Of a stretch of DNA of 64,000 bases, positions 30,945-56,238 are shown one piece after another. The translations under genes were made by a program, and so were the position numbers. The notes below the pieces were generated by a model. That model did no database searches. It was given only the letters and a program-made list of their open reading frames with translations, and was not told where the DNA came from. This stretch comes from Nocardioides sp. TRM66260-LWL. GTDB taxonomy: Bacteria > Actinomycetota > Actinomycetes > Propionibacteriales > Nocardioidaceae. The stretch lies in the NCBI RefSeq assembly GCF_020075545.1, contig NZ_JAIQZK010000004.1:124001-188000 (forward strand). The letters are read 5' to 3'. Every line of letters begins with the position of its first letter. Position 1 is the stretch's first letter.

Positions 30945-30971
30945 ATCGGCACCGACGTCGACCCACCTGAG
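30945..30971 (-). promoter_or_regulatory. FliA-type promoter of cheB
   Basis: On the minus strand CTCAGGT (30971-30965), 14 bp, then GCCGAT (30950-30945): CTCA-N17-GCCGAT. The GTG of cheB is 10 nt after the -10 element. This is one of six such sites in the motility region and the only one with spacing one base longer. Confidence 0.7.
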
Positions 30972-31015
30972 CGAACGCACTGGTCTGGTCTCGACCATCC
31001 GGCTGCCGACGATCC

Positions 31016-31041
31016 CTCAGGTGACCCCCGGTGGCACCGAT
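31016..31041 (+). promoter_or_regulatory. FliA-type promoter of cheR operon
   Basis: CTCAGGT (31016-31022), 14 bp, CCGAT (31037-31041). It is preceded by GATCC as at flgB. The cheR GTG at 31051 lies 9 nt downstream, implying a nearly leaderless mRNA. Confidence 0.75.
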
Positions 31042-31050
31042 GGTCCGGAC

Positions 31051-31944
31051 GTGATCTCCGAGACCAACTTCGGCTTCGTCGCCGACCTGCTGCGTCGGGA
31101 GACCGCCATGCTCTGCGAGCGCGGCAAGGAGTACCTCGTCGAGGCGCGCCTGCTGCCGCTCGCCCGCCAGGCGGGTGACCCCGACGTCGACCACTACGTC
31201 GACCGACTCCGTCGCGACGCCGGCGAGCGCGCCCGCGCCGTCGACGCCCTGACGATCAACGAGACGTCGTGGTTCCGCGACCTCGCCCCCTACCAGGCGT
31301 TCGTCGACGACGTGCTGCCGCGCCTCCTCGCCGCCCGGGTCGACACGCGTCGCCTGACCATCTGGTCGGCCGCCTGCTCCTCGGGCCAGGAGGCCTACAG
31401 CCTGGCGATGCTGCTGGACGAGCACCTGCCGGCCGGCTGGACCGCCCGCATCCACGCCACCGACGTCTCGCCGACGATGGTCGAGCGGGTCCGCGCCGGC
31501 CGCTACTCGCAGGTCGAGATGAACCGCGGCATGCCGGCCACGCGCCTCGTCAAGTACTTCCAGCGGGTCGGCAGCGAGTGGGAGGTCCAGCCGCAGCTGC
31601 GGACGATGGTGACCACCCAGGTGATGAACCTGGCCGCGCCGCTGCCGCCGCTGCCGACCTTCGACGTCGTGCTGCTGCGCAACGTCCTCATCTACTTCGA
31701 CCACGCGACGAAGCAGTCGATCCTCGACCGGGTCCAGGCGACCATCGCAGAGGACGGCTTCCTCATGCTCGGGTCGACCGAGACCACGCTCGACCTCGAG
31801 ACCACCTGGACGCGCGAGTCCGCCGGTCCCGCGGGACGGGTCGTGCTGCACCGCCCACGCCACGGACGCGCCGTCAGCCGGCCGTTCCCCGATTCGTCAT
31901 CCCCCGCGGCGAGCCCTCACCTCACGCTCAGGACAGGAGCCTGA
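31051..31944 (+). CDS. cheR: Chemotaxis protein methyltransferase CheR
   Basis: 297 residues from GTG 31051; an in-frame GTG at 31021 overlaps the promoter, so the later start is chosen. It methylates glutamates on chemoreceptors using SAM. N-terminal helical domain (NFGFVADLLRRETAM), TINETSWFRD, SAM site IWSAACSSGQEAYSLAMLL, ATDVSPTMVERVRAGRYSQ and FDVVLLRNVLIYFD are all typical. First gene of a five-gene chemotaxis operon. Confidence 0.93.
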   Translation: MISETNFGFVADLLRRETAMLCERGKEYLVEARLLPLARQAGDPDVDHYVDRLRRDAGERARAVDALTINETSWFRDLAPYQAFVDDVLPRLLAARVDTRRLTIWSAACSSGQEAYSLAMLLDEHLPAGWTARIHATDVSPTMVERVRAGRYSQVEMNRGMPATRLVKYFQRVGSEWEVQPQLRTMVTTQVMNLAAPLPPLPTFDVVLLRNVLIYFDHATKQSILDRVQATIAEDGFLMLGSTETTLDLETTWTRESAGPAGRVVLHRPRHGRAVSRPFPDSSSPAASPHLTLRTGA

Positions 31945-31949
31945 CCACC

Positions 31950-32333
31950 ATGCACGCACTGATCATCGACGACTCCAGGACGATGCGGTCCATCCTCAAG
32001 CGCATCGTCCACGAGATCGGCTTCGAGACCACCGAGGCCGCCAACGGCCAGGAGGCCCTCGACGTCCTCGAGGCCGGGCTCGTCCCCGACCTGTGCCTCA
32101 TCGACTGGAACATGCCGCTCATGGACGGCTACACCTTCGTGACGCGGGTGCGGGCCGACGAGCGGTGGCGCTCGATGACGCTCATGATGGTGACCACCGA
32201 GAGCGAGCACGGGCAGATCGTCCGCGCGCTGGCCGCGGGCGCCCACGAGTACGTCATCAAGCCGTTCACGGCCGACGCCATCGTCGAGAAGCTCGAGCTC
32301 CTCGGCCTCGCCGTCCGGGAGGTCCCGGCATGA
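31950..32333 (+). CDS. cheY: Response regulator CheY (first copy)
   Basis: 127 residues, ATG 31950. A single receiver domain: acidic pair IIDDSRTM, phospho-acceptor in CLIDWNMPLMDGY, switch Thr in MMVTTESEH and Lys in YVIKPFTAD. It would bind the motor switch (FliM) when phosphorylated by CheA, which is not in this window. Its stop overlaps the cheX start. Confidence 0.9.
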   Translation: MHALIIDDSRTMRSILKRIVHEIGFETTEAANGQEALDVLEAGLVPDLCLIDWNMPLMDGYTFVTRVRADERWRSMTLMMVTTESEHGQIVRALAAGAHEYVIKPFTADAIVEKLELLGLAVREVPA

Positions 32334-32839
32334 TCGCCATCGACGAGCCCACGATCTCCGACGTCCACGCGGTCGTCGAGGAGGTCTGGACGAGCTTCCT
32401 CGGCTCCGACGAGCCCATCCAGATCGGCGCCTCGACCGAGACGACGAGCCTCGTAGACCGGCTGATGCTGGACGACGACACCTGGACCGCCGCCATCACC
32501 GTCACCGGCGCGTGGGAGGCGATGATCCTGATCAGCGTGCCCGTGCCCGCGGCCGGCCTGATCACCGTCGGCATGCTCGGCCTGGACCCCGCCGAGGCCG
32601 AGACCTGCGGCCTGGAGGACCTCACCGACGCCCTCGGCGAGCTCGTCAACATCGTCGGCGGCGGCGTCAAGAGCCTCATGCCCGGCCCGAGCGCGCTCTC
32701 GCTGCCGCTCGTCGCCCAGGGCGCCATCACCTCGACGTCGAACCTCGAGGAGGTGTGCGCCGTCGACCTCACCTGGCACGGCCACCCCATCCGCGTGTCC
32801 ATCGACGTTCCCCGCACCACCCACGGCATCGGAGGCTGA
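32330..32839 (+). CDS. cheX: CheX/CheC-family CheY-P phosphatase
   Basis: 169 residues, ATG 32330 (ATGA overlap with cheY). The family's catalytic signature ExxN appears in DALGELVNIVGGGVKSLM (about residues 101-118), preceded by LTDALGE; the rest is the alternating alpha/beta pattern of CheX. It would dephosphorylate CheY-P and reset signalling. Located between two cheY genes, as expected for such a role. Confidence 0.82.
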   Translation: MIAIDEPTISDVHAVVEEVWTSFLGSDEPIQIGASTETTSLVDRLMLDDDTWTAAITVTGAWEAMILISVPVPAAGLITVGMLGLDPAEAETCGLEDLTDALGELVNIVGGGVKSLMPGPSALSLPLVAQGAITSTSNLEEVCAVDLTWHGHPIRVSIDVPRTTHGIGG

Positions 32840-32842
32840 ACC

Positions 32843-33208
32843 GTGTTGATCCTGGTCGTCGACGACTCCCGCGTCATGCGGCAGATCGTCATCCGCACCC
32901 TGCGGCAGTCGGGCCACGGCGGCCACGACATCGTCGAGGCGGAGAACGGCCGTGAGGCGCTCGAGCTGTGCACCACGCGCAGCGTCGACCTCGTGCTCTC
33001 GGACTGGAACATGCCGGAGATGAGCGGCATCGACCTGCTGGAGTCGCTGCGCGAGCGCGGCTCCACGGTGACGTTCGGCTTCGTCACCTCGGAGGGGTCG
33101 GACCTCATGCGCTCCCGGGCACAGGCGGCGGGGGCGCAGTTCCTCATCGCCAAGCCGTTCACCCCTGAGGCGTTCGACGCCGCCCTGAACGCCGCCAAGG
33201 TGGGCTGA
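32843..33208 (+). CDS. cheY: Response regulator CheY (second copy)
   Basis: 121 residues, GTG 32843. Receiver domain with VVDDSRVMR, phospho-acceptor in LSDWNMPEMSGIDLL, Thr in FGFVTSEGSD and Lys in FLIAKPFTPEAF. It differs clearly from the first CheY. One may be a phosphate sink or act on a different target, as in other species with two CheY proteins; which is which cannot be told here. Confidence 0.9.
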   Translation: MLILVVDDSRVMRQIVIRTLRQSGHGGHDIVEAENGREALELCTTRSVDLVLSDWNMPEMSGIDLLESLRERGSTVTFGFVTSEGSDLMRSRAQAAGAQFLIAKPFTPEAFDAALNAAKVG

Positions 33209-33211
33209 GGC

Positions 33212-33700
33212 GTGACCACCCTGATGACGCACCTGCCGGCGCCGAAGGAGGTCAAGGACCTCATCTTCGGGCTGCTCGACAAGCCGATCGCCCTGCGTCC
33301 CGGCCCGCCGTTCGCGGTGAGCCCGCTCTACCCGGCGAGCATCGCCTCGTTCGTGGACGACTCGCTCGTCGTGCGGGCCGTCGTCGCGCTCGACCTGCCG
33401 CTCTCGGCCTACCTCTCCGCGGCCCTGGCCCTCGTGCCGGTCGCCGGCGCGGAGGCCGCGATCGAGGAGCAGCGGCTCAGCCCGCCGCTGGCCGAGGCCC
33501 TGCACGAGGTGTTCAACGTCTTCGCGACGCTGTTCAATGTGGGCGACTCCGCCCACGTACGCCTCTACAACGCCACGCCCTCGGGCGAGCCGCTCGCCGC
33601 CGACGCCCGCAGCCGCACCCAGATCCTGGGCCGGCGCGAAGACCTCGTCGTCGACATCACCGGCTACGGCACCGGACGCCTCGCGATCGTCCTCTGCTGA
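33212..33700 (+). CDS. Chemotaxis-operon protein of unknown function, possibly CheX-like
   Basis: 162 residues, GTG 33212, 3 bp after cheY and before a strong terminator, so it is the last gene of the che operon. It has LAEALHEVFNVFATLFN (about residues 90-106), which keeps the ExxN spacing of CheX/CheC in a similar helix, and a final beta hairpin (DLVVDITGYGTGRLAIVL). I regard it as a possible divergent CheX paralogue, but the similarity is weak. Confidence 0.6.
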   Translation: MTTLMTHLPAPKEVKDLIFGLLDKPIALRPGPPFAVSPLYPASIASFVDDSLVVRAVVALDLPLSAYLSAALALVPVAGAEAAIEEQRLSPPLAEALHEVFNVFATLFNVGDSAHVRLYNATPSGEPLAADARSRTQILGRREDLVVDITGYGTGRLAIVLC

Positions 33701-33756: not shown

Positions 33757-33794
33757 TCGCCGTCGGGCGTCACTCGGTGGTCGAGTGGGGCTCC

Positions 33795-34035: not shown

Positions 34036-34058
34036 TCGAACGCGTGTTCGCATAGAAT
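34036..34058 (+). promoter_or_regulatory. SOS (LexA) box and -10 of HNH gene
   Basis: TCGAACGCGTGTTCGC (34036-34051) matches the actinobacterial SOS box TCGAAC-N4-GTTCGA at 11 of 12 defined positions. TAGAAT (34053-34058) follows directly as a -10 element and the ATG is 6 nt further, so the mRNA would be leaderless and LexA would cover the promoter. Confidence 0.75.
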
Positions 34059-36359: not shown

Positions 36360-36385
36360 CTCAGGTGCCGTCCGGGACGGCCGAT
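36360..36385 (+). promoter_or_regulatory. FliA-type promoter of the flgB-flgE operon
   Basis: CTCAGGT (36360-36366), 14 bp, CCGAT (36381-36385), about 120 bp before flgB, which leaves a real 5' leader unlike cheB, cheR and fliM. GATCC precedes the -35, as at cheR. Confidence 0.75.
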
Positions 36386-36505
36386 GCCACCCACGAGCGA
36401 GGACTGCTCGACACCGCCGACGGACCGGCACCCGCCCCTGCGAGCCGCAGGGGGACCGCCCCAGCGCGCTTCCGCGCTGACCGTTCCGTCGGAGGTCAGA
36501 TCCCC

Positions 36506-36889
36506 GTGTCCGTGCCCCTGTACGCCGCGAGCGACGCCGTCTCGTCGGTGCTCGGCTACGCGCTGGACGGCATCGCGCAGCGCCAGCGCGTGATCGCCGA
36601 CAACATCGCCAACATCGACACCCCCGGGTTCCGGGCGACGGCGGTGGACTTCGAGTCCTCGCTGCAGGCGGCGATCAGCGGCGCGGGCCCCGACGGCGTC
36701 CAGTCCGCCCTCGCGAACGCCACCCCGGCGCTGCTGCCCACCAACACCCCGGTCGGCGCCAACGGCAACGACGTCGACCTGCGCAAGGAGACCCTCGCGG
36801 CCATGCAGTCGCAGTTCCAGTACCAGATGGTCGCCCGCGCGGTGACCGACCGCTTCGACCTCGTGAAGACCGCGGCGGGAGCCGTCTGA
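36506..36889 (+). CDS. flgB: Flagellar basal-body rod protein FlgB
   Basis: 127 residues, GTG 36506 with GGAGGTCAG upstream. Proximal rod subunit exported by the flagellar type III system. The rod-family motif RQRVIADNIANIDTPGFRAT lies at about 29-48 and the C-terminal helix MQSQFQYQMVARAVTDRFDL completes the coiled-coil pair. First gene of a 12-gene operon; its stop overlaps the flgC start (TGATG). Confidence 0.95.
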   Translation: MSVPLYAASDAVSSVLGYALDGIAQRQRVIADNIANIDTPGFRATAVDFESSLQAAISGAGPDGVQSALANATPALLPTNTPVGANGNDVDLRKETLAAMQSQFQYQMVARAVTDRFDLVKTAAGAV

Positions 36890-37284
36890 TGGGCGCCTTC
36901 GACGCGCTGAGCATCGCGAACTCCGGGCTCGGCTTCCACCAGACCTGGCTCGACGCGCTGTCGTACAACATCGCGAACGCCAACACGATCCGCCCGACCT
37001 CGCAGTCGGCCTTCCAGGCCCAGATGGTCGTCGCGCAGCCGCTGGCCGGCGGCCAGGGCGTCGCGGTCGGCGGCCTCGCCTACTCCGACGCGCAGGGCGT
37101 GATCGTCAACGACCCGAACAGCCCGCTGGCCGACGCGAACGGCAACGTGCGGGCGCCGGCGATGGACATGTCCGCCCAGATGACCCAGCTGATCATGGCC
37201 CAGCGCGGCTTCCAGGCCAGCGCGCAGGTCACTAAGTACGCGCAGGACACCTACTCCACCGCCATCGGGATCGGTGGCCGATGA
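36889..37284 (+). CDS. flgC: Flagellar basal-body rod protein FlgC
   Basis: 131 residues, ATG 36889. Rod protein: N-terminal [20 protein letters not shown] followed by [10 protein letters not shown], and C-terminal [20 protein letters not shown]. The usual NIANxNT is retained. Length matches the family. Its stop overlaps the fliE ATG. Confidence 0.94.
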
Positions 37285-37634
37285 GCGTCAACGGCATCGA
37301 GGCGGTCGGCTTCACGCCGATGGTCCCCACCCAGGTGGCCGCGCCGGCCACCGGCCCGTCCGCGCCGACCGCGCCCACCGGCCCGAACGCCCCCGGCGCG
37401 CCGAAGGTCGAGGGTCCCGACTTCGGCCAGCTCGTCGCCGACGGCCTCCAGCGCCTCGACGGCGTCCAGCGCACCAGCGACCGGCTCGCCGTCCAGGCCG
37501 CCAGCGGCACGCTCACCAACCTGCACGACTACACGATCGCGGCCACCCAGGCGGCCGTGACGACCCAGGTGACGGTGGCCGTGCGCAACAAGGCCGTCGA
37601 GGCGTTCAACGAGATCATGCGGATGCAGGTCTGA
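37281..37634 (+). CDS. fliE: Flagellar hook-basal body protein FliE
   Basis: 117 residues, ATG 37281 (ATGA overlap). Links the MS ring to the rod. An Ala/Pro-rich N-terminal part ([18 protein letters not shown]) is followed by the conserved helical C-terminus with [20 protein letters not shown] and [17 protein letters not shown], typical of FliE. Confidence 0.93.
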
Positions 37635-37636
37635 GG

Positions 37637-39208
37637 ATGAAGGACTCCCTGACCCGCGCGCTCGCGGGATACCGCGCCCAGTTCTCCGCCTTCACGGCCG
37701 GCCAGAAGGTCGTCGCGATCGTCGGCACCGCCGCCCTGCTGCTCGGCGGCTTCATGGTCTACCGCTGGGCCTCGGCCCCGACCTACGCGCCGCTCTACGC
37801 GAACCTCTCCTCCGCGGACGCCTCGGCGATCACCCAGGAGCTCGACTCCACCGGGGTGCCCTACCAGCTCAGCGACGGCGGCAACACGATCCTCGTGCCG
37901 CAGGACGCGCTCTACCAGGCCCGGCTCGACGTGGCCGGCAAGGGCCTGCCGTCCTCCAGCAAGGCCGGCACCGACCCGTTCGCCAACAGCGGCATCGCCA
38001 GCTCGGACTTCGAGCAGCAGACCAACGTCCGGATGGCGCTGGAGAGCGACCTCGCCACCACGATCGAGCACATCCAGGGCATCTCGACGGCCGTGGTGCA
38101 CCTGGCGATCCCGCAGAAGCAGGCCTTCTCCGACAACCAGAGCCCCACCACCGCCTCGGTGCTCGTGCAGACCGACCCGGGCGCGAGCCTGACCCCCGGC
38201 CAGGTGCAGACCATCGTCCAGCTGGTGTCCTCCAGCGTCGACGGCCTGGACCCCAAGAACGTCTCGGTGGCCGACTCCACCGGCCGGGTCTACACCAACC
38301 CGGGCGCGGACGGCTCCGACCCGATGATGCAGGACCAGCAGGTCGCGGCCGTCCAGAACGACCTGCAGACCAAGCTGCAGGCGATGCTCGACCGCGTCGT
38401 CGGCCCGGGCAACTCGACCGTCCAGGTGACGCCGGTGCTCGACTTCGACAAGAAGGTCACCGACATCACCAGCTACACCCCCGACAGCAAGAACCCGGTC
38501 TCCTCGCAGACCACCTCGGAGGAGAAGTACCAGGGCCCCGGCGCCGCGAACGCCGCCGGCGGGGTCGTCGGCCCCGACGGCCAGCTGCTCGGCGCCAACG
38601 CCGCCGGCTCCTCGGCGTCGAAGTACGACAAGAAGGCCACCACCCAGGACCGCGCGATCGGCAGCACCGTCCAGCGGGTCGAGAGCACCCCCGGCCAGAT
38701 CAAGTCGCTGCACATCGGCGTCGCGATGGACGCCGCGGCGACCAAGAACGTGCCGCTGGCCAGCATCCAGAAGCTCATCGCCTCGACGGCCGGCGTCAAC
38801 GTGCCGCGGGGCGACACCATCCAGGTGGCGCAGGTGCCGTTCGACCGCTCCGCGGAGGCCGCTGCCCAGCAGGAGCTGCAGGCCGCCCAGGCGGCCCAGT
38901 CGTCGGCCTCGCGCAACGACCTGATCCGCAAGGGCGCCCTGGCCGGCGTCGTCCTGCTCGCCCTGCTGCTGGCCCTGATCAAGAGCCGCAAGCGCGCCAA
39001 GGCCCGGGCCGAGGCGACGACCTACCTGGTCGAGCAGCTGCGCGAGCAGGCCGCCCAGCAGCAGGTGCTCGAGCAGAGCAACGCCCTGGCCCTCGAGGCC
39101 GCCGAGCACACCCCGGAGGACGACATGCGCGACGAGCTCTCCGCGCTCATCGAGCGTCAGCCCGAGGACGTCGCCTCGCTCCTGCGCGGCTGGCTGACGG
39201 AGCGCTGA
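37637..39208 (+). CDS. fliF: Flagellar MS-ring protein FliF
   Basis: 523 residues, ATG 37637. Forms the ring in the cytoplasmic membrane on which the motor is built. First TM about 27-46 (VVAIVGTAALLLGGFMVYRW), then the YscJ-like ring-building motif APLYANLSSADASAITQELD, and the second TM near 435 (KGALAGVVLLALLLALIK). The C-terminal ~25 residues (DELSALIERQPEDVASLLRG) bind FliG. Confidence 0.95.
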   Translation: MKDSLTRALAGYRAQFSAFTAGQKVVAIVGTAALLLGGFMVYRWASAPTYAPLYANLSSADASAITQELDSTGVPYQLSDGGNTILVPQDALYQARLDVAGKGLPSSSKAGTDPFANSGIASSDFEQQTNVRMALESDLATTIEHIQGISTAVVHLAIPQKQAFSDNQSPTTASVLVQTDPGASLTPGQVQTIVQLVSSSVDGLDPKNVSVADSTGRVYTNPGADGSDPMMQDQQVAAVQNDLQTKLQAMLDRVVGPGNSTVQVTPVLDFDKKVTDITSYTPDSKNPVSSQTTSEEKYQGPGAANAAGGVVGPDGQLLGANAAGSSASKYDKKATTQDRAIGSTVQRVESTPGQIKSLHIGVAMDAAATKNVPLASIQKLIASTAGVNVPRGDTIQVAQVPFDRSAEAAAQQELQAAQAAQSSASRNDLIRKGALAGVVLLALLLALIKSRKRAKARAEATTYLVEQLREQAAQQQVLEQSNALALEAAEHTPEDDMRDELSALIERQPEDVASLLRGWLTER

Positions 39209-39211
39209 CCC

Positions 39212-45229: not shown

Positions 45230-45240
45230 AGGAGGCGGCC

Positions 45241-45759: not shown

Positions 45760-45810
45760 TCCACCCATCCCGCACCGTCCCCGGCTCCCACCGTCCCGAG
45801 AGGCTCCACC

Positions 45811-46891: not shown

Positions 46892-46917
46892 CTCAGGTCC
46901 GGCCCGGAGAGGCCGAT
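46892..46917 (+). promoter_or_regulatory. FliA-type promoter of flbD-motA-motB-fliL
   Basis: CTCAGGT (46892-46898), 14 bp, CCGAT (46913-46917), 59 bp before the flbD start. The second unit of the flagellar cluster begins here, after the flgE terminator. Confidence 0.75.
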
Positions 46918-46976
46918 CACATCTCTGCGACGGCCACGGACGGCCGTCACCCCCACGCGCACCAGGAGGGTGCCCC

Positions 46977-47411: not shown

Positions 47412-48184
47412 TGGACATCGCCACCCCGGTCGGCATCGTCGTCGCCTTCGTGGTCATCATCGTCTCGATGGTCATGGAGGGCGGCAACCCCGCCAGCCTG
47501 ATCGCCCCGCCGGCGATGATCCTGGTCTTCGGCGGCACCCTCTTCGTCAGCATGGCCGGCGGCACGATGGGCGACCTCAAGATGTCGCTCGGCGCGCTGA
47601 AGACCGCGTTCACCGGCGGCGTCAAGCCGGCCGCGGACGTCGTGCCGGCCGTCGTCCAGCTGGCCGACAAGGCCCGCCGCGAGGGCCTCCTCGCGCTGGA
47701 GGAGATGGTCAAGGACATGCCCGACGAGTTCCTCGTCAAGGGCGTCACGATGGCCATCGACGGCACCGACCCCGACGAGGTGCGCGACATCCTCGAGGCC
47801 GAGGTCGCGGCCAAGAAGAAGGCCGACAAGCAGGCCGCGAAGTTCTTCGCCGACGCCGGCGCCTACGCGCCCACCATCGGCATCATCGGCACCGTCATGG
47901 GCCTCGTGCACGTGCTGGAGAACCTCGCCCAGCCGGCCGAGCTCGGGCACCTGATCGCCGCCGCGTTCCTCGCGACCCTGTGGGGCGTGATGTCGGCCAA
48001 CGTCATGTGGCTGCCGATCGCCAGCCGGATCAAGCGGCTCAGCGAGCTCGAGGCCCAGCGCATGGAGCTGATCATCGAGGGCGTGGCCGCCATCCAGGCC
48101 GGCTCGAACCCGCGCGTCATCGCCCAGAAGCTCACCTCGCTGCTGCCGGGCGACCAGCAGCCGCCCGCCCAGGAGGCCGCCTGA
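47411..48184 (+). CDS. motA: Flagellar stator protein MotA
   Basis: 257 residues, ATG 47411. Four membrane helices (VGIVVAFVVIIVSMVMEGG; PPAMILVFGGTLFVSMAGG; APTIGIIGTVMGLVHVLENL; AAAFLATLWGVMSANVMWLP) with the large cytoplasmic loop between helices 2 and 3 that contacts FliG. With MotB it forms a proton or sodium channel that drives rotation. Confidence 0.95.
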   Translation: MDIATPVGIVVAFVVIIVSMVMEGGNPASLIAPPAMILVFGGTLFVSMAGGTMGDLKMSLGALKTAFTGGVKPAADVVPAVVQLADKARREGLLALEEMVKDMPDEFLVKGVTMAIDGTDPDEVRDILEAEVAAKKKADKQAAKFFADAGAYAPTIGIIGTVMGLVHVLENLAQPAELGHLIAAAFLATLWGVMSANVMWLPIASRIKRLSELEAQRMELIIEGVAAIQAGSNPRVIAQKLTSLLPGDQQPPAQEAA

Positions 48185-48185
48185 C

Positions 48186-49328
48186 ATGAGCGGTCACGGG
48201 GGGCACGGCCGTCGGGCCAAGCACGAGGAGCACGAGGAGCACGAGAACCACGAGCGCTGGCTCGTGACGTACGCCGACATGGTGACGCTGCTGATGGTGC
48301 TGTTCATCGTCATGTTCGCGATGAGCCAGGTCGACCAGAAGAAGTTCCTGATGCTGAAGGAGGGCCTGGCGGCCGGCTTCGGCGCGTCCGACTCCATCCT
48401 CGACGGCAACACCTCGATCCAGGACCAGCCCGGCATGTCGGCGATCGGCCCGATCGCGCCGAACCTCACCACCGCCGACCTCAGCGTCGAGCAGTCCAAG
48501 CAGGTGGACGAGGCGGTGGAGGCCGGCATGCAGCAGCAGTCCGCGCAGGCGCAGCAGCGCCAGTTCGCGGCGGCGCGCGCGGAGGTGCAGCGGCTCGACG
48601 GCGTCCGTCAGGCGCTGATGGCCGCGCTGAAGGCCAAGGGCCTCGCCGGCGACGTGCGCACCAGCTACGACGAGCGCGGCCTGGTGGTCAGCCTGGTCTC
48701 GCGGCACATCGTCTTCGACGCCGACTCCGCCGTCCTGACCCCGCGCGGCGCGGCCGTGGTCGACGCCCTCGCCCCCGCGCTCAAGGCGCTGCCGGAGGAC
48801 CTGGAGATCGACGGCCACACCAACCAGGAGAAGGTGAAGCCGAAGTACTTCGCCAGCGACTGGGACCTCTCGGCCGCCCGCGCGGTCACCGTGCTGCGGC
48901 GGCTCAACGAGCGCTTCGGGGTGCCCGCGGACCGCCTGCGCCTGGCCGCCTTCGGCGACACCAAGCCGCTGATCCCCGTGAGCCGACCGGACTCCCAGGA
49001 GATCAACAAGCGCGTCGACGTCATCGTGCTCACCGGGCTCTCCGCCGACAACGCCGCCCAGCTGCCCGATGCCGCCGCGTCGCTCGGCCTGCCGTCGGTC
49101 GGCACGCTCTCCGGCGCCCGCGCCGCGCAGGACCGCACCGCCGCCGGCGTCGACCCGTCCGACCCGACGGCCGGCGCCGACGCCGCCCGGGCCGGGGCCG
49201 AGCCCGACCCCATCGGCCGGGCCGACGCCGGCGCGTCGGCCGCCGCGCCCGCCACCCGCACCCCGGCCCGCACCGCCGGATCCGACACCCGCCCCGACAC
49301 CCGCACCGCCCGAGGAGCCATCCGATGA
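48186..49328 (+). CDS. motB: Flagellar stator protein MotB
   Basis: 380 residues, ATG 48186. A His/Glu-rich start (KHEEHEEHENHERW), one TM with the ion-carrying Asp in YADMVTLLMVLFIVMFAMSQ, a plug/linker region, and the OmpA-like peptidoglycan-binding domain (about 180-280: EIDGHTNQEKV, RRLNERFGVPADRLRLAAFG, INKRVDVIVL). About 90 extra Ala/Pro/Thr-rich residues follow. It anchors the stator to the wall. Confidence 0.94.
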   Translation: MSGHGGHGRRAKHEEHEEHENHERWLVTYADMVTLLMVLFIVMFAMSQVDQKKFLMLKEGLAAGFGASDSILDGNTSIQDQPGMSAIGPIAPNLTTADLSVEQSKQVDEAVEAGMQQQSAQAQQRQFAAARAEVQRLDGVRQALMAALKAKGLAGDVRTSYDERGLVVSLVSRHIVFDADSAVLTPRGAAVVDALAPALKALPEDLEIDGHTNQEKVKPKYFASDWDLSAARAVTVLRRLNERFGVPADRLRLAAFGDTKPLIPVSRPDSQEINKRVDVIVLTGLSADNAAQLPDAAASLGLPSVGTLSGARAAQDRTAAGVDPSDPTAGADAARAGAEPDPIGRADAGASAAAPATRTPARTAGSDTRPDTRTARGAIR

Positions 49329-49762
49329 GCGCCACCGCCGCCGCCCCGGCCGCCGAGGAGAAGAAGGGGGGCAAGAAGAAGCTGATCATCATCGTCGTCG
49401 CCCTGCTCGTCGTCGCCGGCGCCGCCTACTTCTTCCTGCTCAAGCCCAAGCCGGCCGACGCCGCCAAGCCGAAGCCGGTCGCCGGCGTCGTCACCCCGCT
49501 CGACCCGATCCAGATCAACCTCGAGGGCGGCCACTACCTGCGCGTGGGCATCGCCCTGCAGCAGACCGACAAGGCCGCCGAGGCCCTCGACGGCAGCAAG
49601 GCCCTCGACGCCGCGATCGAGCTGTTCAGCGGCAAGAGCATCGAGGAGCTCTCCAAGCCCAAGGAGCGGGTGAAGCTGAAGAAGGAGCTCGTCAAGGAGC
49701 TCGAGCACCTCTACGAGGACGAGGTCATGGACGTCTACTTCACCCAGTTCGTCATGCAGTAG
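49325..49762 (+). CDS. fliL: Flagellar basal-body-associated protein FliL
   Basis: 145 residues, ATG 49325 overlapping motB. A lysine-rich cytoplasmic start (EEKKGGKKK), a TM (LIIIVVALLVVAGAAYFFLL) and an extracellular domain with DPIQINLEGGHYLRVGIALQ and the ending YEDEVMDVYFTQFVMQ, as in FliL. Supports the stator. Last gene of this unit. Confidence 0.92.
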   Translation: MSATAAAPAAEEKKGGKKKLIIIVVALLVVAGAAYFFLLKPKPADAAKPKPVAGVVTPLDPIQINLEGGHYLRVGIALQQTDKAAEALDGSKALDAAIELFSGKSIEELSKPKERVKLKKELVKELEHLYEDEVMDVYFTQFVMQ

Positions 49763-49890: not shown

Positions 49891-49916
49891 CTCAGGTGCC
49901 CCACGCCCGGGCCGAT
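49891..49916 (+). promoter_or_regulatory. FliA-type promoter of fliM-flhB operon
   Basis: CTCAGGT (49891-49897), 14 bp, CCGAT (49912-49916). The fliM GTG at 49927 is 10 nt downstream, so the mRNA is nearly leaderless; this decides the fliM start over longer in-frame options. Confidence 0.75.
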
Positions 49917-49926: not shown

Positions 49927-50886
49927 GTGAGCATCTCGCCCGTCCCGGTCTCCGCACCGGCCTCCCCACCGGGCCGCACCCGTCGGCGCAGCAGCCGCGG
50001 CGGCACGCCCACGCCCTACGACTTCCGCCGGCCGATCCAGCTCTCCCGCGAGCACCAGCGGATCCTGCAGCTGGGCTTCGACGGCTTCGCGCGCCAGGCG
50101 ACGACGGTCTTCACCTCCGCCCTGCGCAGCGTCTGCGCGGTCTCGCTCACCACGATCGACCAGCGCAGCTACAGCGAGTACGTCGACTCCCTCGACGCCA
50201 CGACCTACCTGACGCTGTTCACCACCGACCCCATGCCCGGCCGAGGCATGCTCGACCTGCCGCTCAACGCGGTCATGTCGTGCGTCGACCACATGCTCGG
50301 CGGACCGGGCGCGGCGTCGCAGCCGAACCGGCCGCTCACCGAGATCGAGAGCGGCATCATCAGCGGCCTGGTCGAGCGGCTGCTCGCCGAGATGCGCTAC
50401 TCGCTGGCCGCGATCGTCGCGCTCGACCCGCAGGTCACCGGCGTCGAGTACAGCCCGCAGTTCGCCCAGGTGGCCGGGGCCGCCGACGTCATGGTGGTGA
50501 TCGAGCTCGAGCTGCGCATCGACGAGCGGCCGCACCGCATGTCGGTGTGCCTGCCGTTCAGCGGCCTGCATCCGCACCTGGCTGCGGCCGCGGCGCCGGC
50601 GCCGGTCTCCGGACGCGAGCGCGCGATGCGCGCCGAGGCGGCCGAGCTGCTCCAGACCGCCTTCCAGGACGTGCCCGTCGACGTCGGCGTGCGGTTCCGC
50701 ACCACCGGCGTCGAGCCGTCCGTCCTGGCCTCGCTCCAGCCGGGCGACGTGCTCCGCCTGGCGCACCCGGCCGCCGCGCCGCTCGACGTCACCGTCGACG
50801 ACACCGTCTTCGCCCACGCCACCGCCGGAGCCCGCGGGCCCCGGCTGGCCGCCCTCATCGTCACGACCCCGCAGGAGACCCGATGA
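49927..50886 (+). CDS. fliM: Flagellar motor switch protein FliM
   Basis: 319 residues from GTG 49927. C-ring component and target of CheY-P. After a Ser/Arg-rich start come YDFRRPIQLSREHQRILQLG and FDGFARQATTVFTSALRS, the CheC-like middle domain with DLPLNAVMSCVDHMLGGPGA and EIESGIISGLVERLLAEMRY, and the C-terminal SpoA domain (VDVGVRFRTTGVEPSVLASLQPGDVL cut short). The usual N-terminal CheY-binding LSQxEIDALL is not seen. Confidence 0.92.
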   Translation: MSISPVPVSAPASPPGRTRRRSSRGGTPTPYDFRRPIQLSREHQRILQLGFDGFARQATTVFTSALRSVCAVSLTTIDQRSYSEYVDSLDATTYLTLFTTDPMPGRGMLDLPLNAVMSCVDHMLGGPGAASQPNRPLTEIESGIISGLVERLLAEMRYSLAAIVALDPQVTGVEYSPQFAQVAGAADVMVVIELELRIDERPHRMSVCLPFSGLHPHLAAAAAPAPVSGRERAMRAEAAELLQTAFQDVPVDVGVRFRTTGVEPSVLASLQPGDVLRLAHPAAAPLDVTVDDTVFAHATAGARGPRLAALIVTTPQETR

Positions 50887-51764
50887 CCGCCTCGCCCGAC
50901 TCCGGCCTCTCGCCCCAGGCCCGCCTGGCCTTCGAGACCGCCACGGCGCTCGCCGAGGTGCTCCCGGCCAGCGAGCCGCTCGCGGCCGGCGACCCGCAGC
51001 CCGGCACCGAGCACGTCACCGGCCTGTTCGCCGGCGCGGCGGTCGCCGACCTCACCGGCGCGGTCACCGGACGCATCGCGGTGCTGGTCGGCGAGGAGCT
51101 CGTCGCCGCCCTGAAGTCGAGCCCGATGGGCGGCCTGGACCTCGCCGCCGCCGTGCAGCCCGCGCTCGACGCCGCCGCCAGCGCGCTCGGCGCCCAGGCC
51201 TCCGCCGCCCGCGGTCTCGACCTCGCCCTGGTGCTCGACGAGCTCGTCGGCGGCACCGGGCCGTTCACCGCCGTGCCGCTGCTGGGCAGCGGCATCGCCG
51301 CCGCCGTGCTGGTGCCCGACACGACGCTGGAGACCGCCGCGACCGTGCAGGCCTCCGGTGGCGCGGCCGGTGGGCCGTCCGCGGCGAGCCCGGCCGCGGA
51401 GGCGGTCGCGGCGCCCGCGGGCGCCGCGGTCGCGCCCGTGCCGGCCGGCATGCCGATCCCGCAGGTGCCGCCCGCCGGAGCCCCGGGCTACGAGAACGTG
51501 ACGTCGCTGGCGGGACGCCGCGGCATCGAGATGCTGCACGGCGTCGAGATGGAGGTGACCGTCGAGCTCGGCCGCACCCGCATGCCGGTGCGCGAGCTGC
51601 TGGCGCTGGCGCCGGGCACGGTCATCGCCCTCGACCGCGCCGCCGGCAGCCCGGCCGACCTGCTGGTCAACGGCCGCCTGATCGCCCGCGGGGAGGTCGT
51701 CGTCGTCGACGAGGACTTCGGCCTGCGGATCACCGAGATCCTCGACCAGCAGGCGCTGGCCTGA
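50883..51764 (+). CDS. fliN: Flagellar motor switch protein FliN (long, FliY-like)
   Basis: 293 residues, ATG 50883 overlapping fliM. The C-terminal SpoA domain (about 215-290) is complete: EVTVELGRTRMPVRELLALA, PGTVIALDRAAGSPADLLVN and RGEVVVVDEDFGLRITEI. The ~190-residue N-terminal region resembles a CheC-like fold without the ExxN catalytic pair, so the layout is that of FliY from other Gram-positives but probably without phosphatase activity. Confidence 0.9.
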   Translation: MTASPDSGLSPQARLAFETATALAEVLPASEPLAAGDPQPGTEHVTGLFAGAAVADLTGAVTGRIAVLVGEELVAALKSSPMGGLDLAAAVQPALDAAASALGAQASAARGLDLALVLDELVGGTGPFTAVPLLGSGIAAAVLVPDTTLETAATVQASGGAAGGPSAASPAAEAVAAPAGAAVAPVPAGMPIPQVPPAGAPGYENVTSLAGRRGIEMLHGVEMEVTVELGRTRMPVRELLALAPGTVIALDRAAGSPADLLVNGRLIARGEVVVVDEDFGLRITEILDQQALA

Positions 51765-51795
51765 GGCCGGACCGGCAGCGAAGGAAGGACACCCC

Positions 51796-52872
51796 ATGAC
51801 CGAGCTCGCCCTGCGGATGGTCGCCTCGCTGGCCGTCGTCGTCGGCCTGCTGCTGCTGGCCGCCCGCATCGCCGGCCGCCGCTTCCGCTCGTCCTCGGAC
51901 GCCGAGATCCAGGTGCTGCAGCGCCAGTCGATCAGCCGCGGCTCGCAGATCGCCGTCGTGCAGGTGCGCGACCGCGTCCTCGTGCTCGGCAGCACCGAGC
52001 AGCAGGTCGCGCTGCTGACCAGCTTCGACGCCGACGCCGCCGACGCCGCCGATGCCGCCGATGCCGCCGAGCGCGAGGGCGACGAGGCGGACGGCGCAGA
52101 CGACGGCGATCTCGCCGCCGTGCTGACGCTGGTCGCCCCCGTGGTCGAGGCCGCGCCGGTCGTCGAGGCCGCGCCGGTCGTCGAGGCCGCGCCGGTCGTC
52201 GAGGCCGCGCCGGTGGTCGAGGCCCAGACGGTGGTCGAGCCCCGGACGGTGGTCGAGCCCCGGACGGTGGTCGAGCCTGTCGAGACCCCCGCGCCGACCC
52301 ACCGGGCCGCGCCGCTCGCAGCGCACACGGTCGAGCCCGTCGAGCCCGACCTGCCCCGCAGCCGGCCCCTGCCACCGGGCCGCACGATCTCCCGCGACCC
52401 CTTCGGCCCGCGCATCCCCGGCAGGCACGCCGCCGCCGTCGAGGAGACGCCCGCCTTCGTGATGCCCACCGCCCCGGTGCTCGAGCCGGTCGCGGCCGAC
52501 CCGGCGCTGGCGCTGCTCGGCGAGCTCGACCAGCGCAGCGAGCTCGACCGCCTGCTCGACGCCGCCCTCGAGGCCGCGCCCACCCGGCCGTCGCCCCTCC
52601 CGATGACCCCGGCGGTCCCGGCCGCCCCGGCGGCCGAGCGCCGACCGTCCCGCAAGGAGCGCGCCGAGGCCAAGCGGCAGGCCGCCCTCCTGGCCCGCGC
52701 CCAGCGGATCCTCGCCGCCGAGCAGGCCGCGGCCGCGAAGGCCGCCACGCCCGCCGCCGGCCAGCCTGCCAAGGCCGGCAAGCCCGGGGGCAAGGACGCG
52801 CTCGCCGGCTCCGTGCTCTCCACCCAGACCTGGCGCCAGGCCTACCAGGCCGTCACCGGACGGGCCTCCTGA
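51796..52872 (+). CDS. fliO: Flagellar biosynthesis protein FliO with inserted VVE repeat
   Basis: 358 residues, ATG 51796, with GAAGGA upstream. N-terminal TM (MVASLAVVVGLLLLAARIAG) and the small FliO domain with EIQVLQRQSISRGSQIAVVQ and LVLGSTEQQVALL (about 35-75). The remainder is low-complexity: four VVEAAP units and then VVEPRT/VVEPVETPAP (about 115-168), encoded by the same GGTGGTCGAG repeat found between genes. Usual FliO is 100-220 residues. A basic C-terminal part ends the protein. It helps assemble FliP in the export gate. Confidence 0.85.
   Translation: MTELALRMVASLAVVVGLLLLAARIAGRRFRSSSDAEIQVLQRQSISRGSQIAVVQVRDRVLVLGSTEQQVALLTSFDADAADAADAADAAEREGDEADGADDGDLAAVLTLVAPVVEAAPVVEAAPVVEAAPVVEAAPVVEAQTVVEPRTVVEPRTVVEPVETPAPTHRAAPLAAHTVEPVEPDLPRSRPLPPGRTISRDPFGPRIPGRHAAAVEETPAFVMPTAPVLEPVAADPALALLGELDQRSELDRLLDAALEAAPTRPSPLPMTPAVPAAPAAERRPSRKERAEAKRQAALLARAQRILAAEQAAAAKAATPAAGQPAKAGKPGGKDALAGSVLSTQTWRQAYQAVTGRAS
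52266..52294. repeat. GGTGGTCGAG repeat inside fliO
   Basis: GGTGGTCGAGCCTGTCGAGA followed by CCCCCGCGCC, encoding VVEPVETPAP in frame. It is preceded by two shorter units (GGTGGTCGAGCCCCGGAC) at about 52230-52265. Confidence 0.8.
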
Positions 52873-52876
52873 GGTG

Positions 52877-53833
52877 ATGGCGCGCCCCGGGCGCGCGCTC
52901 CTGGTCCCGGGGGCGCTGCGTGCTGCCCTGCGGACGACCCTGGCGACGCTGCTGGCGGTGCTCGTCCTCACCACCGGCGCGCTGCTCGCGCCGGCGCAGG
53001 CCGCGCCCGGCGACCCCACGCCCGGGGTCTCGACCGGCTCGACCACCGACAGCGGCACGACCACCGGAGACGGCGCGACCACCGGCGCTCCCCGCTCCTC
53101 CGGCACCACCGACCCGGCCGGCCCCCGAGGCCCGCAGGGACCGAAGGGCACCACCGGCAGCGGCGACGGCTCGGTGACGATCGACGTCGGCAGCCTTACC
53201 GACAAGCCCAGCCAGTCGATCGTCCTGCTGATCGTCCTGACGCTGCTCTCGCTGGCCCCGGCGATCCTGCTCACCTGCACCAGCTTCACCAAGATCCTCG
53301 TGGTGCTGGGCCTGACCCGCAACGCGCTCGGCCTCCAGCAGACCCCGCCGAACCAGGTGCTGGCCGGCCTCGCGCTCTTCCTCAGCCTGTTCATCATGGC
53401 GCCGGTGCTGAGCCAGATGAACAGCGACGGCGTGCAGCCCTACCTCGACGGCACCAAGACCTCCTCGCAGGCCTGGGACGACGGCCTCGCCCCGCTGCGC
53501 GCCTTCATGCTCGACAACACCGACGACGACGAGCTGACGATGCTCACCGACGTCGCCCGGCGCGACCAGCCGAAGACGCGCGAGGACGTCCCGATGACCA
53601 CCCTGGTGCCCGCGTTCATCCTCAGCGAGCTGAAGGACGCCTTCATCATCGGCTTCATCATCTTCATCCCGTTCCTCGTCATCGACATCGTCGTGAGCGG
53701 GGCGCTGATGGCGCTGGGCATGATGATGATGCCCCCGGTGATGGTGTCGCTGCCGTTCAAGCTGCTGCTCTTCGTGCTCGTCAACGGCTGGGGCCTGATC
53801 ATCACAGCCCTCGTCCAGAGCTATCAGACCTAG
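52877..53833 (+). CDS. fliP: Flagellar biosynthesis protein FliP
   Basis: 318 residues; ATG 52877 (GTG 52874 also possible). Export-gate membrane protein. The signal peptide (TLATLLAVLVLTTGALLAPA) is followed by an unusual ~60-residue Thr/Ser/Gly linker that contains collagen-like GPRGPQGPKG. The FliP core has LTLLSLAPAILLTCTSFTKI, LVVLGLTRNALGLQQTPPNQ, LVPAFILSELKDAFIIGF and the final PFKLLLFVLVNGWGLIITAL. Confidence 0.94.
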   Translation: MARPGRALLVPGALRAALRTTLATLLAVLVLTTGALLAPAQAAPGDPTPGVSTGSTTDSGTTTGDGATTGAPRSSGTTDPAGPRGPQGPKGTTGSGDGSVTIDVGSLTDKPSQSIVLLIVLTLLSLAPAILLTCTSFTKILVVLGLTRNALGLQQTPPNQVLAGLALFLSLFIMAPVLSQMNSDGVQPYLDGTKTSSQAWDDGLAPLRAFMLDNTDDDELTMLTDVARRDQPKTREDVPMTTLVPAFILSELKDAFIIGFIIFIPFLVIDIVVSGALMALGMMMMPPVMVSLPFKLLLFVLVNGWGLIITALVQSYQT

Positions 53834-53884
53834 CGCCCCGACGACGCCCGCGATGAGACCCGACCCGACCCGGGAGATGACCCG

Positions 53885-54154
53885 ATGACCGACAACGCCG
53901 TCGTCCAGATCGCCCTGAAAACCATGATGGTCGCGCTGCAGCTCTCGGCGCCGATCCTGCTCACCGCGCTCGCGGTCGGCTTCGCGATCTCGCTGTTCCA
54001 GTCGATGACCCAGATCCAGGAGTTCACCCTCGCCTTCGTGCCGAAGGTCGTGGCGGTCGGCGTGGCCCTGCTGGTCAGCGGCAACTGGATGCTGCACACG
54101 ATGATCTCCTTCACCCAGGAGCTCTTCGCGATGATCCCGAGCCTGCTGGCCTGA
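53885..54154 (+). CDS. fliQ: Flagellar biosynthesis protein FliQ
   Basis: 89 residues, ATG 53885, GGGAGATG upstream. Two TM helices (MVALQLSAPILLTALAVGFA and KVVAVGVALLVSGNWMLHTM) joined by ISLFQSMTQIQEFTLAFVPK, which is the family signature. Part of the FliPQR export gate. Confidence 0.95.
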   Translation: MTDNAVVQIALKTMMVALQLSAPILLTALAVGFAISLFQSMTQIQEFTLAFVPKVVAVGVALLVSGNWMLHTMISFTQELFAMIPSLLA

Positions 54155-54192
54155 GCCGCCCGGACCCGCCAGGACCCGCCAGGACCCCGCCC

Positions 54193-54957
54193 GTGACGCT
54201 CACCTTCGCCGGCCAGCCGCTGCTGGCCTTCCTGCTCGCCGCCGTGCGCATCCTCGCGTGGCTGGCGGTGGTGCCGCCGTTCAGCACCCGCGCGGTGCCG
54301 GCGATGGCGAAGGTGGTGCTCGGGCTCGGCCTGGCGTTCGCGGTGGCCCCGCTGCTGGCGTCCTCGACGATGCCGGCCACGACGCCGGCGCTGCTGATGA
54401 CGGTGCTCACCGAGACCCTGATCGGGCTGGCGATGGGCTTCCTCACCGCGCTGCTCTTCCAGGCCGTCGCGGCGGCCGGCTCGATGATCGACGTCTTCGG
54501 CGGCTTCGCCCTGGCGCAGGGCTTCGACCCGCTCGGCATGCAGATGAACACCGTCTTCGGGAAGTTCCACCAGATGCTCGCCACGATGCTGCTCTTCGCC
54601 ACCGGCGGCCACCTGCTGGTGATCGGCGGCCTCCTGCGCACCTTCGAGCTGCTGCCGATCGGCGACTCCCCCGACCTCGACGGCGCAACGTCGCTGCTCC
54701 AGCGCGCCTTCGGCGTCTTCTTCACCACCACCGTGCAGATCGCGCTGCCGATGATCGCCGTGCTCTTCGTCGTCGACCTCGGGCTGGCCCTGATGACCAA
54801 GATCGCCCCGCAGCTCAACGCGATCAACGTGATGTTCCCGGCCAAGATCGGGCTCACCCTGCTCCTGCTGGGCCTGTCGTTCCCGGTGCTGCCGGTCGTG
54901 ATCCAGCGCCTCACCGACCTCTCCATGCAGCTCATGGCGAGCTTCGCGGGCGCCTGA
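54193..54957 (+). CDS. fliR: Flagellar biosynthesis protein FliR
   Basis: 254 residues, GTG 54193. Six or so TM helices; conserved LAAVRILAWLAVVPPFSTRA at the start, MGFLTALLFQAVAAAGSMID, and GFALAQGFDPLGMQMNTVFG. Completes the FliPQR gate; its end is 12 bp from flhB. Confidence 0.94.
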   Translation: MTLTFAGQPLLAFLLAAVRILAWLAVVPPFSTRAVPAMAKVVLGLGLAFAVAPLLASSTMPATTPALLMTVLTETLIGLAMGFLTALLFQAVAAAGSMIDVFGGFALAQGFDPLGMQMNTVFGKFHQMLATMLLFATGGHLLVIGGLLRTFELLPIGDSPDLDGATSLLQRAFGVFFTTTVQIALPMIAVLFVVDLGLALMTKIAPQLNAINVMFPAKIGLTLLLLGLSFPVLPVVIQRLTDLSMQLMASFAGA

Positions 54958-54969
54958 GGGGAGGCGGAC

Positions 54970-56238
54970 GTGGCGGAGGAGAAGACCGAGAAGCCCACTC
55001 CCAAGCGCCGCAAGGAGGCGCGCAAGGAGGGGCAGGTCGCCCGGACCCAGGAGATCGGCCCGTGGGCGGCGCTGGCCGTCGTCGGCCTCGCGCTGCCGGC
55101 GCTGCTGCGCCACGAGGTCGCGACGATGGCCGACTTCATGCGCTCCTGCCTGCACGCCCTGGAGGACCCCAGCACCACCCAGGCCACCGACCTGCTCGTG
55201 CAGGGCGCGGGACACGCCGCGGTCGCGGTGCTCGTCCTGGGCTGCGCGGTCCTGCTGGTCAGCGTCGCCGGCACGCTCGGGCAGGGCGGCTTCTACCTGG
55301 CCACCAAGGCGGTCAAGCCGAACCTCAAGAAGCTCAGCCTGGTCCAGGGCGCGAAGCGGCTCTTCGGCCCGCACGCCCTCTGGGAGGGCCTGAAGACCCT
55401 GGCGAAGACCGCGGCGGTCGGGCTGCTCGCGTGGTCGACGATCCGCGGCGTCATGCCGCTGCTCGGCGGGCTGCACCCGATGGACGAGGTGGTCGCCACC
55501 GCCGGCGACCGGGCGCTGGGCATGCTCCGCGACGTCGCGATCGCGGGCCTGCTGCTCGCGGCCGCCGACTACGGCTTCCAGCGGCGCCGCATCGGCAAGC
55601 AGACCCGCATGACCAAGGAGGAGGTCAAGCAGGAGAACAAGCAGGCCGAGGGCGACCCGATGCTCAAGGGCGCGATCCGCGCCCGGCAGCTGGCCGCCAG
55701 CCGCAACCGGATGATGGCCGACGTCCCCGTGGCCGACGTCGTGCTGGTCAACCCGACGCACGTCGCCGTCGCGCTGCGCTACCAGCCCGAGCGCGGCGCG
55801 CCGGTCGTCGTCGCGCGCGGGGCGGGCGTCGTGGCGGCCCGCATCCGCGAGATCGCCGCCGAGCACGACGTCCCGCTGGTGCAGGACGTGCCGCTGGCCC
55901 GCGCGCTCTACGTCTCCTGCGAGGTCGGCACGGAGATCCCGCCGCAGCTCTTCGCCGCGGTCGCGCAGATACTGGCGTTCGTCATCGCCCGCCGCACCCA
56001 GGGCGCCCGCGGCGGCTCCCACCGCAGCCCGCGTCCGGTGCAGCAGGAGCTCCCCGACCTCCCCGCCCGCGGCCGGCGACGCCGCGTCCCGGAGCCGCGC
56101 GCCGAGCTCGGGTCGCCGGCGGCGGTCGAGCCCCGGACGGCGGTCGAGCCGCGGACGGCGGTCGAGCCCCGGACGGTGGTCGAGCCTGCCGATACCCCCG
56201 CGCCGAAGCACTCAGGTCTGCCCGCCCTGGGCCGATAG
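54970..56238 (+). CDS. flhB: Flagellar biosynthesis protein FlhB with repeat-derived tail
   Basis: 422 residues, GTG 54970. Begins AEEKTEKPTPKRRKEARKEG, the invariant FlhB start, with four TM helices and the autocleavage site NPTH in VVLVNPTHVAVALRYQPERG (about 259-262). The normal protein would end near residue 355. Here ~65 more residues follow, including AVEPRTAVEPRTAVEPRT and VVEPADTPAP encoded by the GGTGGTCGAG-type repeat. It sets substrate specificity of export. The promoter of flhA lies within its last codons. Confidence 0.93.
   Translation: MAEEKTEKPTPKRRKEARKEGQVARTQEIGPWAALAVVGLALPALLRHEVATMADFMRSCLHALEDPSTTQATDLLVQGAGHAAVAVLVLGCAVLLVSVAGTLGQGGFYLATKAVKPNLKKLSLVQGAKRLFGPHALWEGLKTLAKTAAVGLLAWSTIRGVMPLLGGLHPMDEVVATAGDRALGMLRDVAIAGLLLAAADYGFQRRRIGKQTRMTKEEVKQENKQAEGDPMLKGAIRARQLAASRNRMMADVPVADVVLVNPTHVAVALRYQPERGAPVVVARGAGVVAARIREIAAEHDVPLVQDVPLARALYVSCEVGTEIPPQLFAAVAQILAFVIARRTQGARGGSHRSPRPVQQELPDLPARGRRRRVPEPRAELGSPAAVEPRTAVEPRTAVEPRTVVEPADTPAPKHSGLPALGR
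56175..56203. repeat. GGTGGTCGAG repeat inside flhB
   Basis: GGTGGTCGAGCCTGCCGATA followed by CCCCCGCGCC, in frame as VVEPADTPAP, preceded by three GCGGTCGAGCC-type units (about 56121-56174). Near the 3' end of flhB. Confidence 0.8.
56211..56236 (+). promoter_or_regulatory. FliA-type promoter of flhA
   Basis: CTCAGGT (56211-56217), 14 bp, CCGATAG (56232-56238), within the end of flhB and 69 bp before the flhA start; the closest of the six to the enterobacterial GCCGATAA. Confidence 0.75.

Follow-up and report, generated by a model that had tools for sequence, protein, structure and literature searches.

For Actinoplanes missouriensis, Jang et al. in 2016 reportedly proposed the promoter consensus CTCA-N15..17-GCCGAA. 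In this organism, 33 flagellar genes are transcribed simultaneously, without hierarchy (PMC8306008), and flagellar transcription depends on sigma factors of WhiG-like type (PMC8325347). Neither Kineococcus nor Nocardioides sp. JS614 has FlgM; the 2008 genome paper that noted this suggested an action of CsrA on flagellin and raised the question of FliA control in FlgM-less actinobacteria (PMC2587704). FlgM is missing, too, from later actinobacterial classes (PMC10746217), and a 2013 review noted that WhiG-type sigma factors had not been analysed in motile simple actinobacteria (PMC4255298). In Campylobacter jejuni, CsrA binds many flagellar mRNAs, but transcription there proceeds through RpoN and FliA in sequence (PMC4894983). 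Here we present an analysis of the FliA-type promoters in a motility cluster of Nocardioides sp. TRM66260-LWL, which lies in a window of 64,000 nucleotides (contig NZ_JAIQZK010000004.1, positions 124,001 to 188,000), and of the CsrA-type hairpins found in the leaders that some of these promoters are predicted to generate.

The original prediction, made from the letters of the window, had proposed that six CTCAGGT-N14/15-CCGAT promoters define a FliA regulon, five of them with N14 on the plus strand and one with N15 on the minus strand (table 1). All six are present: the exact N14 pattern occurs five times on the plus strand against a mean of 0.01 in dinucleotide-shuffled sequence, the N15 site lies at its given position, and the gene named after each site (cheR, flgB, flbD, fliM, flhA and cheB) agrees with Pfam. 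A seventh, weaker candidate can be added, 9 nt past which stands an open reading frame (ORF) of 111 amino acids (position 62433) without Pfam match. Since the loose pattern CTCA-N13..20-CCGAW is enriched only weakly in the window (12 matches vs. 7.0 expected), it is the GGT and the fixed spacing that carry the signal. The GGT extension of the -35 element is preferred but not required, its bases being 89% G, 83% G and 72% T in 110 score-selected sites of the family, in which CTCA is conserved at 99-100% and CGA at 100%; the spacer is 13 in 110 of 116 sites.

Searching the whole genome (3.90 Mb in 16 contigs) with CTCAGGT-N13..16-CCGAW returned 15 matches, and the reversed control none; the spacer is N14 in 14 of them and N15 in one, that of cheB. 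The bias toward motility genes that had been anticipated is evident, with 8 of the 15 matches falling within two motility clusters that together span 44.5 kb and make up 1.14% of the genome (binomial 1.7e-12). Two of these eight lie outside the window on contig C16, one before fliC and the other before flgN-flgK-flgL-fliW-csrA, and the cheA promoter of the same contig has the form CTCAGAT-N13-GCCGAT, with one mismatch. A ninth match, on contig C9, is located upstream of a lone receiver gene (cheY). By the gene calls made here, all nine matches outside the window are intergenic. The relaxed pattern CTCA-N16-GCCGAT gave 30 matches in this genome vs. 11 for its reversed form, too noisy for a target list.

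The motif follows FliA across the family. Among 198 Nocardioidaceae genomes, flagellin is present in 62, all of which possess FliA (defined by a match below 1e-80), as do five more. The 67 FliA-positive genomes contain on average 7.7 motifs vs. 2.2 in the 131 others (reversed control, 1.7 and 1.4), and the difference persists within the same genus (7.8 in 35 FliA-positive genomes, 2.4 in 37 others). Orthologue footprints were then scored in 20 genomes, namely TRM66260-LWL and 19 relatives that were mostly picked for close fliC/fliM, counting sites with a score of at least 11 of 13 within 300 nt upstream. The counts for flbD, fliM, flhA, flgB, fliC, flgN and cheA each include one row from TRM66260-LWL; this row is missing for cheB, the start of which was called too early, and for cheR, which was uncalled. 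Such sites recur before the operons of the window (table 1), before fliC (15/19) and flgN (14/18) and before cheA (6/7); with TRM66260-LWL excluded, they are retained in 19 of 19 relatives for flbD, 17 of 18 for fliM and 15 of 17 for flhA. They are rare before fliS (1/19) and csrA (2/15), absent before 21 other genes (0/390) and found in 9 of 1320 null windows. The sites thus combine a GCCGAT-like -10 element with a CTCA/TAAA-like -35 element about 16 bp apart and a conserved placement before flagellar and chemotaxis operons, features that support the interpretation of the six sites as members of a putative FliA regulon.

Because fliC and the flgN operon on C16 have the same promoter, early and late genes belong to one class, as the original prediction had surmised for the early genes. 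Together with the lack of any FlgM match over cut-off in the 20 genomes, this supports a putative single-tier FliA regulon as reported for Actinoplanes. With respect to A. missouriensis, the -35 element is here extended to CTCAGGt and the -10 element ends mostly in T; moreover, chemotaxis operons carry the site, fliM, cheR and cheB look leaderless, and hairpins appear on early leaders. The promoters resemble the class III of enterobacterial FliA in their GCCGAT -10 element and in having flagellin, hook-associated and chemotaxis targets, but differ from that FlgM-restrained class in that ring, rod, export and stator genes share it.

The sigma factor likely to read these promoters is encoded on C16 (78327-78974), the sole match to exceed the cut-off, and narrowly so, in a TIGR02479 search of the genome. 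Its closest solved chains are of WhiG/FliA type, the best being 6pfv, which we take to be WhiG. The gene stands between fliC and flgN, in the vicinity of fliD/fliS and flgN-flgK-flgL-fliW-csrA, so that both its closest relatives and its flagellar neighbourhood assign it to the FliA/WhiG group. WhiG of the WhiG-RsiG pair in Streptomyces and Rubrobacter belongs to the same sigma family, whereas its regulon there is a different one, comprising sporulation and pili (PMC8325347). Autoregulation of fliA is not supported: sites scoring at least 11 precede it in 1 of 18 upstream regions (best score 10 in TRM66260-LWL) and in 3 of a sample of 34 named loci, 27 of them from Nocardioides, encoding a relative of the C16 FliA. 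One simple pattern for housekeeping -35/-10 elements was found in none of the 18 upstream regions. The tetranucleotide CTAG is more frequent before fliA in relatives (2.6/kb vs. 0.9/kb in other intergenic DNA), often in a GGNCTAGNCC-like context; it is absent upstream of fliA in TRM66260-LWL and, as a possible operator, too weak to claim. As separate observations, additional FliA-like genes occur in relatives G029, G108, G191, G183 and G090, with two equal-scoring copies about 1 kb apart in G029 and a stop codon inside one copy in G191, and FliA without flagellin was found in G044, G175, G179, G035 and G047, among which G179 still shows 8 motif matches.

The distance from site to start codon in 116 sites is 9 nt in 14 and 10 nt in 6 cases, and never between 0 and 8 nt; four sites show a negative distance, probably from starts called too early. 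Of 81 sites with a leader, 82% have a pyrimidine nine bases after CCGAT and 60% have G at the tenth base. From this gap and base composition the transcript is likely to start at the tenth base after CCGAT, just beyond the 5-9 bp that had originally been predicted. With such a start, transcripts of cheR, cheB and the fliM operon would have no leader or almost none: in TRM66260-LWL the GTG of cheR (31051) is exactly the tenth base and that of fliM (49927) the eleventh, while the probable GTG of cheB (30937), with its N15 spacer, falls two bases short of the tenth. The leaderless-type pattern is also more frequent in FliA-positive genomes of the family (6.1 vs. 2.1 per genome; reversed control, 1.9 and 1.5). 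Beside these genes, CTCAGGC-type sites on the minus strand at C9:160147-160172 and C16:11536-11561 each lie exactly 9 nt before a gene, encoding an acyltransferase-like and a TPR lipoprotein-like protein (named by eye), which are possible leaderless members of the regulon.

Leaders, taken from the predicted transcript start until shortly after the start codon, were scanned for hairpins with an ANGGAN hexaloop and a stem of at least four pairs, using sites scoring at least 10 and leaders longer than 12 nt. The hairpin is present in 17/17 leaders of flgB, 18/18 of flbD, 18/18 of fliC and 12/16 of flhA, and in none of those of flgN (0/15), cheA (0/6) and fliM (0/5). Shuffled leaders contained at most one hairpin per set (mean 0.03-0.07) and reverse complements none. 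In the 110 nt upstream of every called gene, hairpins were found in 68 of 76 cases for flgB, flbD, flhA and fliC vs. 9 of 502 for other genes, four of the nine being before flgD. After other FliA-type sites (26, with 13 from TRM66260-LWL and 13 of 20 from relatives G191 and G114) a single hairpin was seen, that of cheY on C9. The stems covary: in 56 of the 68 hairpins (after collapsing duplicates and excluding hairpins that extended beyond the beginning of the leader; the four genes pooled), 97 cells changed on both sides vs. 43 after shuffling, with a score of 0.538 vs. 0.151 that falls to 0.06-0.16 when the partners are slid by 1-3 columns.

A covariance model placed the flbD, flgB and flhA leaders, all three in its training set, at the top of the 65 candidates of the window. 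Of the 3460-4390 candidates per genome 150 were scored, and among these in TRM66260-LWL the leaders of flbD, fliC and flgB ranked 1-3, the cheY leader of C9, which is outside the training set, ranked 5, and that of flhA about 15th of 19; rank 4 and most remaining candidates are located elsewhere. In the named loci, which partly overlap with the genomes of the family set, the hairpin is present at 25 of 29 fliC-side sites. Rfam lists no family at the window hairpins. The loop lies 6-11 bases from the predicted start in 15/18 fliC and 17/18 flbD leaders, and 24-31 bases from it in 16/17 flgB leaders. TRM66260-LWL encodes CsrA (over cut-off) and its antagonist FliW (over the Pfam but under the NCBIfam cut-offs) in the flgN operon. 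With ANGGA in the loop of a conserved stem, the leaders of flgB, flbD, flhA and fliC are therefore candidate CsrA targets.

These features recall the CsrA-FliW control of Bacillus subtilis hag and C. jejuni flaA, with a GGA at the ribosome site (looked at here in the listed fliC leaders) and both csrA and fliW present, and also the hairpins with ANGGA in the loop to which CsrA binds in the flagellin leader of C. jejuni flaA (PMC4894983). In contrast to those systems, the same hairpins are found here also on flgB, flbD, flhA and one cheY leader. Among the matches listed in our literature search, which covered titles and abstract openings with subscription literature mostly outside, none described a CsrA site in the flgB, flbD or flhA leader of an actinobacterium.

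Outside the family, flagellin loci carry sites of at least 11 in 9 of 19 cases across six families. In clusters from 17 outside genomes, sites of at least 10.5 precede fliC in 9/17, flgN in 10/16 and flbD in 7/11 (one flhA row, in G439, is a false placement and was disregarded), and the hairpin is present at fliC in 14/17. Sites at flgB (2/12) and fliM (0/10) and hairpins of early operons (flgB 2/12, flbD 3/11) are few there, so that the sequence evidence for one tier and for early-operon hairpins covers Nocardioidaceae only. One outside family, f32, has CTAAC-like -35 elements instead. In three outside genomes fliM starts 9-10 nt after CTTAC/CTAAC-N15..16-GCCGAY (L191-L192, L209-L210 of f32, L203-L204 of f25), a leaderless geometry with a different -35 element.

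Apart from these sparse outside sites and hairpins, several results weigh against the proposed FliA-CsrA scheme. Fewer than six exact motifs are present in 15 of the 62 flagellated genomes and at least six in 8 of 136 flagellin-negative ones, and the counts per genome ignore shared descent. Six of the 15 matches in TRM66260-LWL precede no known motility gene: they stand before a 60-amino-acid ORF, a biotin carboxylase gene (331 nt off), the genes of a RibD_C protein and a PGPGW membrane protein and, in two cases, no sense gene at all. CheR is weak, with a site in 4 of 9 orthologues. The C16 FliA straddles the TIGR02479 cut-off of 189.6 bits, scoring 189.7 in the genome search and 188.8 when the called protein was compared by hmmscan, and FlgM matches below cut-off occur in 3 of the 20 genomes (E 0.03-0.8). 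The covarying hairpins had been selected for a stem of at least three pairs and pooled from four genes, which biases pairing upward; 3 of the 16 flhA leaders pair three bases only, including that of TRM66260-LWL, missed for this reason by the scan for four, and another has a five-base loop.

Chance matches in a GC-rich genome do occur, given that the reversed pattern yields 1.4-1.7 per family genome, but as an explanation of the six sites chance has practically no probability left and is refuted by the enrichment in the window, the conservation before orthologous operons and the higher motif counts of FliA-positive genomes. It is harder to dismiss that the FliA sites merely amplify early operons that also own housekeeping promoters, with a hierarchy hidden underneath; B. 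subtilis offers an example of such an arrangement. A second promoter may indeed lie before flgB, flbD, fliM and flhA, and fliA itself, with a site in one of 18 upstream regions, must use some other promoter. The single conserved FliA-type site per operon and the fixed distance from hairpin to start suit one main start better, and we regard the hidden hierarchy as unlikely. That a different sigma factor, of SigB/SigF type or a second FliA paralogue, reads the promoters could be argued from the seven weaker TIGR02479 matches, from the several FliA copies of some relatives and from the textbook -35 element, which is TAAA rather than CTCA (PMC8325347). We consider this very improbable, for those other matches reach 26-130 bits vs. 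189.7, GCCGATAA is the -10 element of the flagellar sigma factor (PMC8325347), and motif number tracks the presence of FliA.

The hairpins allow a different reading of their own, as stabilisers that depend on CsrA or as 5' protective stems bound by another factor. Those of fliC and flbD lie near the 5' end, a placement also found in E. coli flhDC, whose mRNA is reportedly protected by CsrA (a study cited in PMC7652899). The invariant loop A and GGA on a variable stem (a loop pattern that is also the selection rule) and the location of csrA and fliW inside the regulon fit a brake better, and we regard the stabiliser reading as rather unlikely.

We thus favor the model of a one-tier FliA regulon with a CsrA-FliW gate on four leaders, which on the present sequence evidence appears rather probable as a whole. 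The FliA/WhiG-family sigma factor from C16 would read WW-N3-CTCAGGt-N12-G-GCCGAT, with transcription starting at the tenth base after CCGAT, and would switch on early and late flagellar genes together with chemotaxis genes in a single tier. FliA would not drive its own gene, nor would a recognisable FlgM restrain FliA; order and dosage would instead be set at the level of the message. CsrA may bind the GGA in the six-base loop of the flgB, flbD, flhA and fliC leader hairpins and bridge it to the ribosome-site GGA, blocking translation, until FliW, encoded in the same operon, removes CsrA during flagellin export. The leaderless messages of cheR, cheB and the fliM operon, as well as those of flgN-flgK-flgL-fliW-csrA and cheA, would escape CsrA.

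Table 1. FliA-type promoters, leader hairpins and motility genes in the window (position 1 is its first letter; orthologue counts refer to sites scoring at least 11 of 13)
Feature	Position	Strand	Evidence
FliA-type promoter of cheB (CTCAGGT-N15-CCGAT)	30945..30971	-	4/6 orthologue rows
FliA-type promoter of cheR-cheY-cheX-cheY	31016..31041	+	4/9 orthologues
FliA-type promoter of the flgB-to-flgE operon	36360..36385	+	14/19 orthologues
CsrA-type hairpin (ACGGAC hexaloop), flgB leader	36413..36432	+	23.8 bits, 2nd of 65 in window
FliA-type promoter of flbD-motA-motB-fliL	46892..46917	+	20/20 orthologues
CsrA-type hairpin (ACGGAC hexaloop), flbD leader	46929..46948	+	27.8 bits, 1st of 65; genome-wide E 0.0148
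FliA-type promoter of fliM-fliN-fliO-fliP-fliQ-fliR-flhB	49891..49916	+	18/19 orthologues
FliA-type promoter of flhA	56211..56236	+	16/18 orthologues
CsrA-type hairpin (ACGGAC hexaloop, 3 inner pairs only), flhA leader	56264..56283	+	19.3 bits, 3rd of 65
Weaker candidate FliA-type site CTCACCG-N13-GCCGAT	62398..62423	+	low confidence
cheB (receiver + methylesterase)	29871..30937	-	
cheR, cheY, cheX, cheY, unknown 162-aa ORF	31051..33700	+	
flgB, flgC, fliE, fliF, fliG, fliH, fliI, fliJ, NlpC/SLT protein, fliK, flgD, flgE (fliF, fliG, fliI named by order and eye, without Pfam)	36506..46668	+	
flbD, motA, motB, fliL	46977..49762	+	
fliM, fliN, fliO, fliP, fliQ, fliR, flhB (fliQ, fliR: names from size and gene order alone)	49927..56238	+	
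flhA	56305..58374	+	

The flhB stop codon TAG (56236-56238) starts on the last T of the CCGAT in the flhA promoter; CGATAG is present in 10 of the 16 listed flhA sites, the identity with the flhB stop having been checked in TRM66260-LWL only. Where the flhA operon ends, Rfam places the actinobacterial sRNA Ms_IGR-5 (58608-58812, minus strand; 83.6 bits, gathering 45). The two exact motif matches without downstream sense gene are those at C13:79441 (+), leading into an apparent hairpin, and C14:107146 (+). The motility cluster is unbroken in 17 of the 19 fetched relatives (mostly picked for that) and lies on two contigs in TRM66260-LWL, where each half contains a DUF222-HNH gene (window 33793-35348; L024:17268-18815 on C16). 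The two copies are inverted and 85.6% identical over 1562 bp, and this gene is perhaps the rearrangement site of the split cluster.

Simultaneous flagellar transcription is known already from Actinoplanes; the present reading extends this known kind of regulon to Nocardioidaceae, and the hairpins on early operons are new. The analysis provides a defined promoter, the base at which its transcript is predicted to start, a list of targets and a checkpoint at the RNA level that can be tested, and so makes the control of FliA in actinobacteria that lack FlgM open to experiment. We give an even chance to the broader proposition that in Nocardioidaceae transcriptional order has been replaced by order at the message level, CsrA-FliW gating flagellin together with the rod, ring and hook, stator and export-gate operons by means of matched hairpins at the 5' end, while the leaderless fliM operon (switch and export) and adaptation genes escape. 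If this is true, flagellin export would feed back, through FliW, on the production of new basal bodies.

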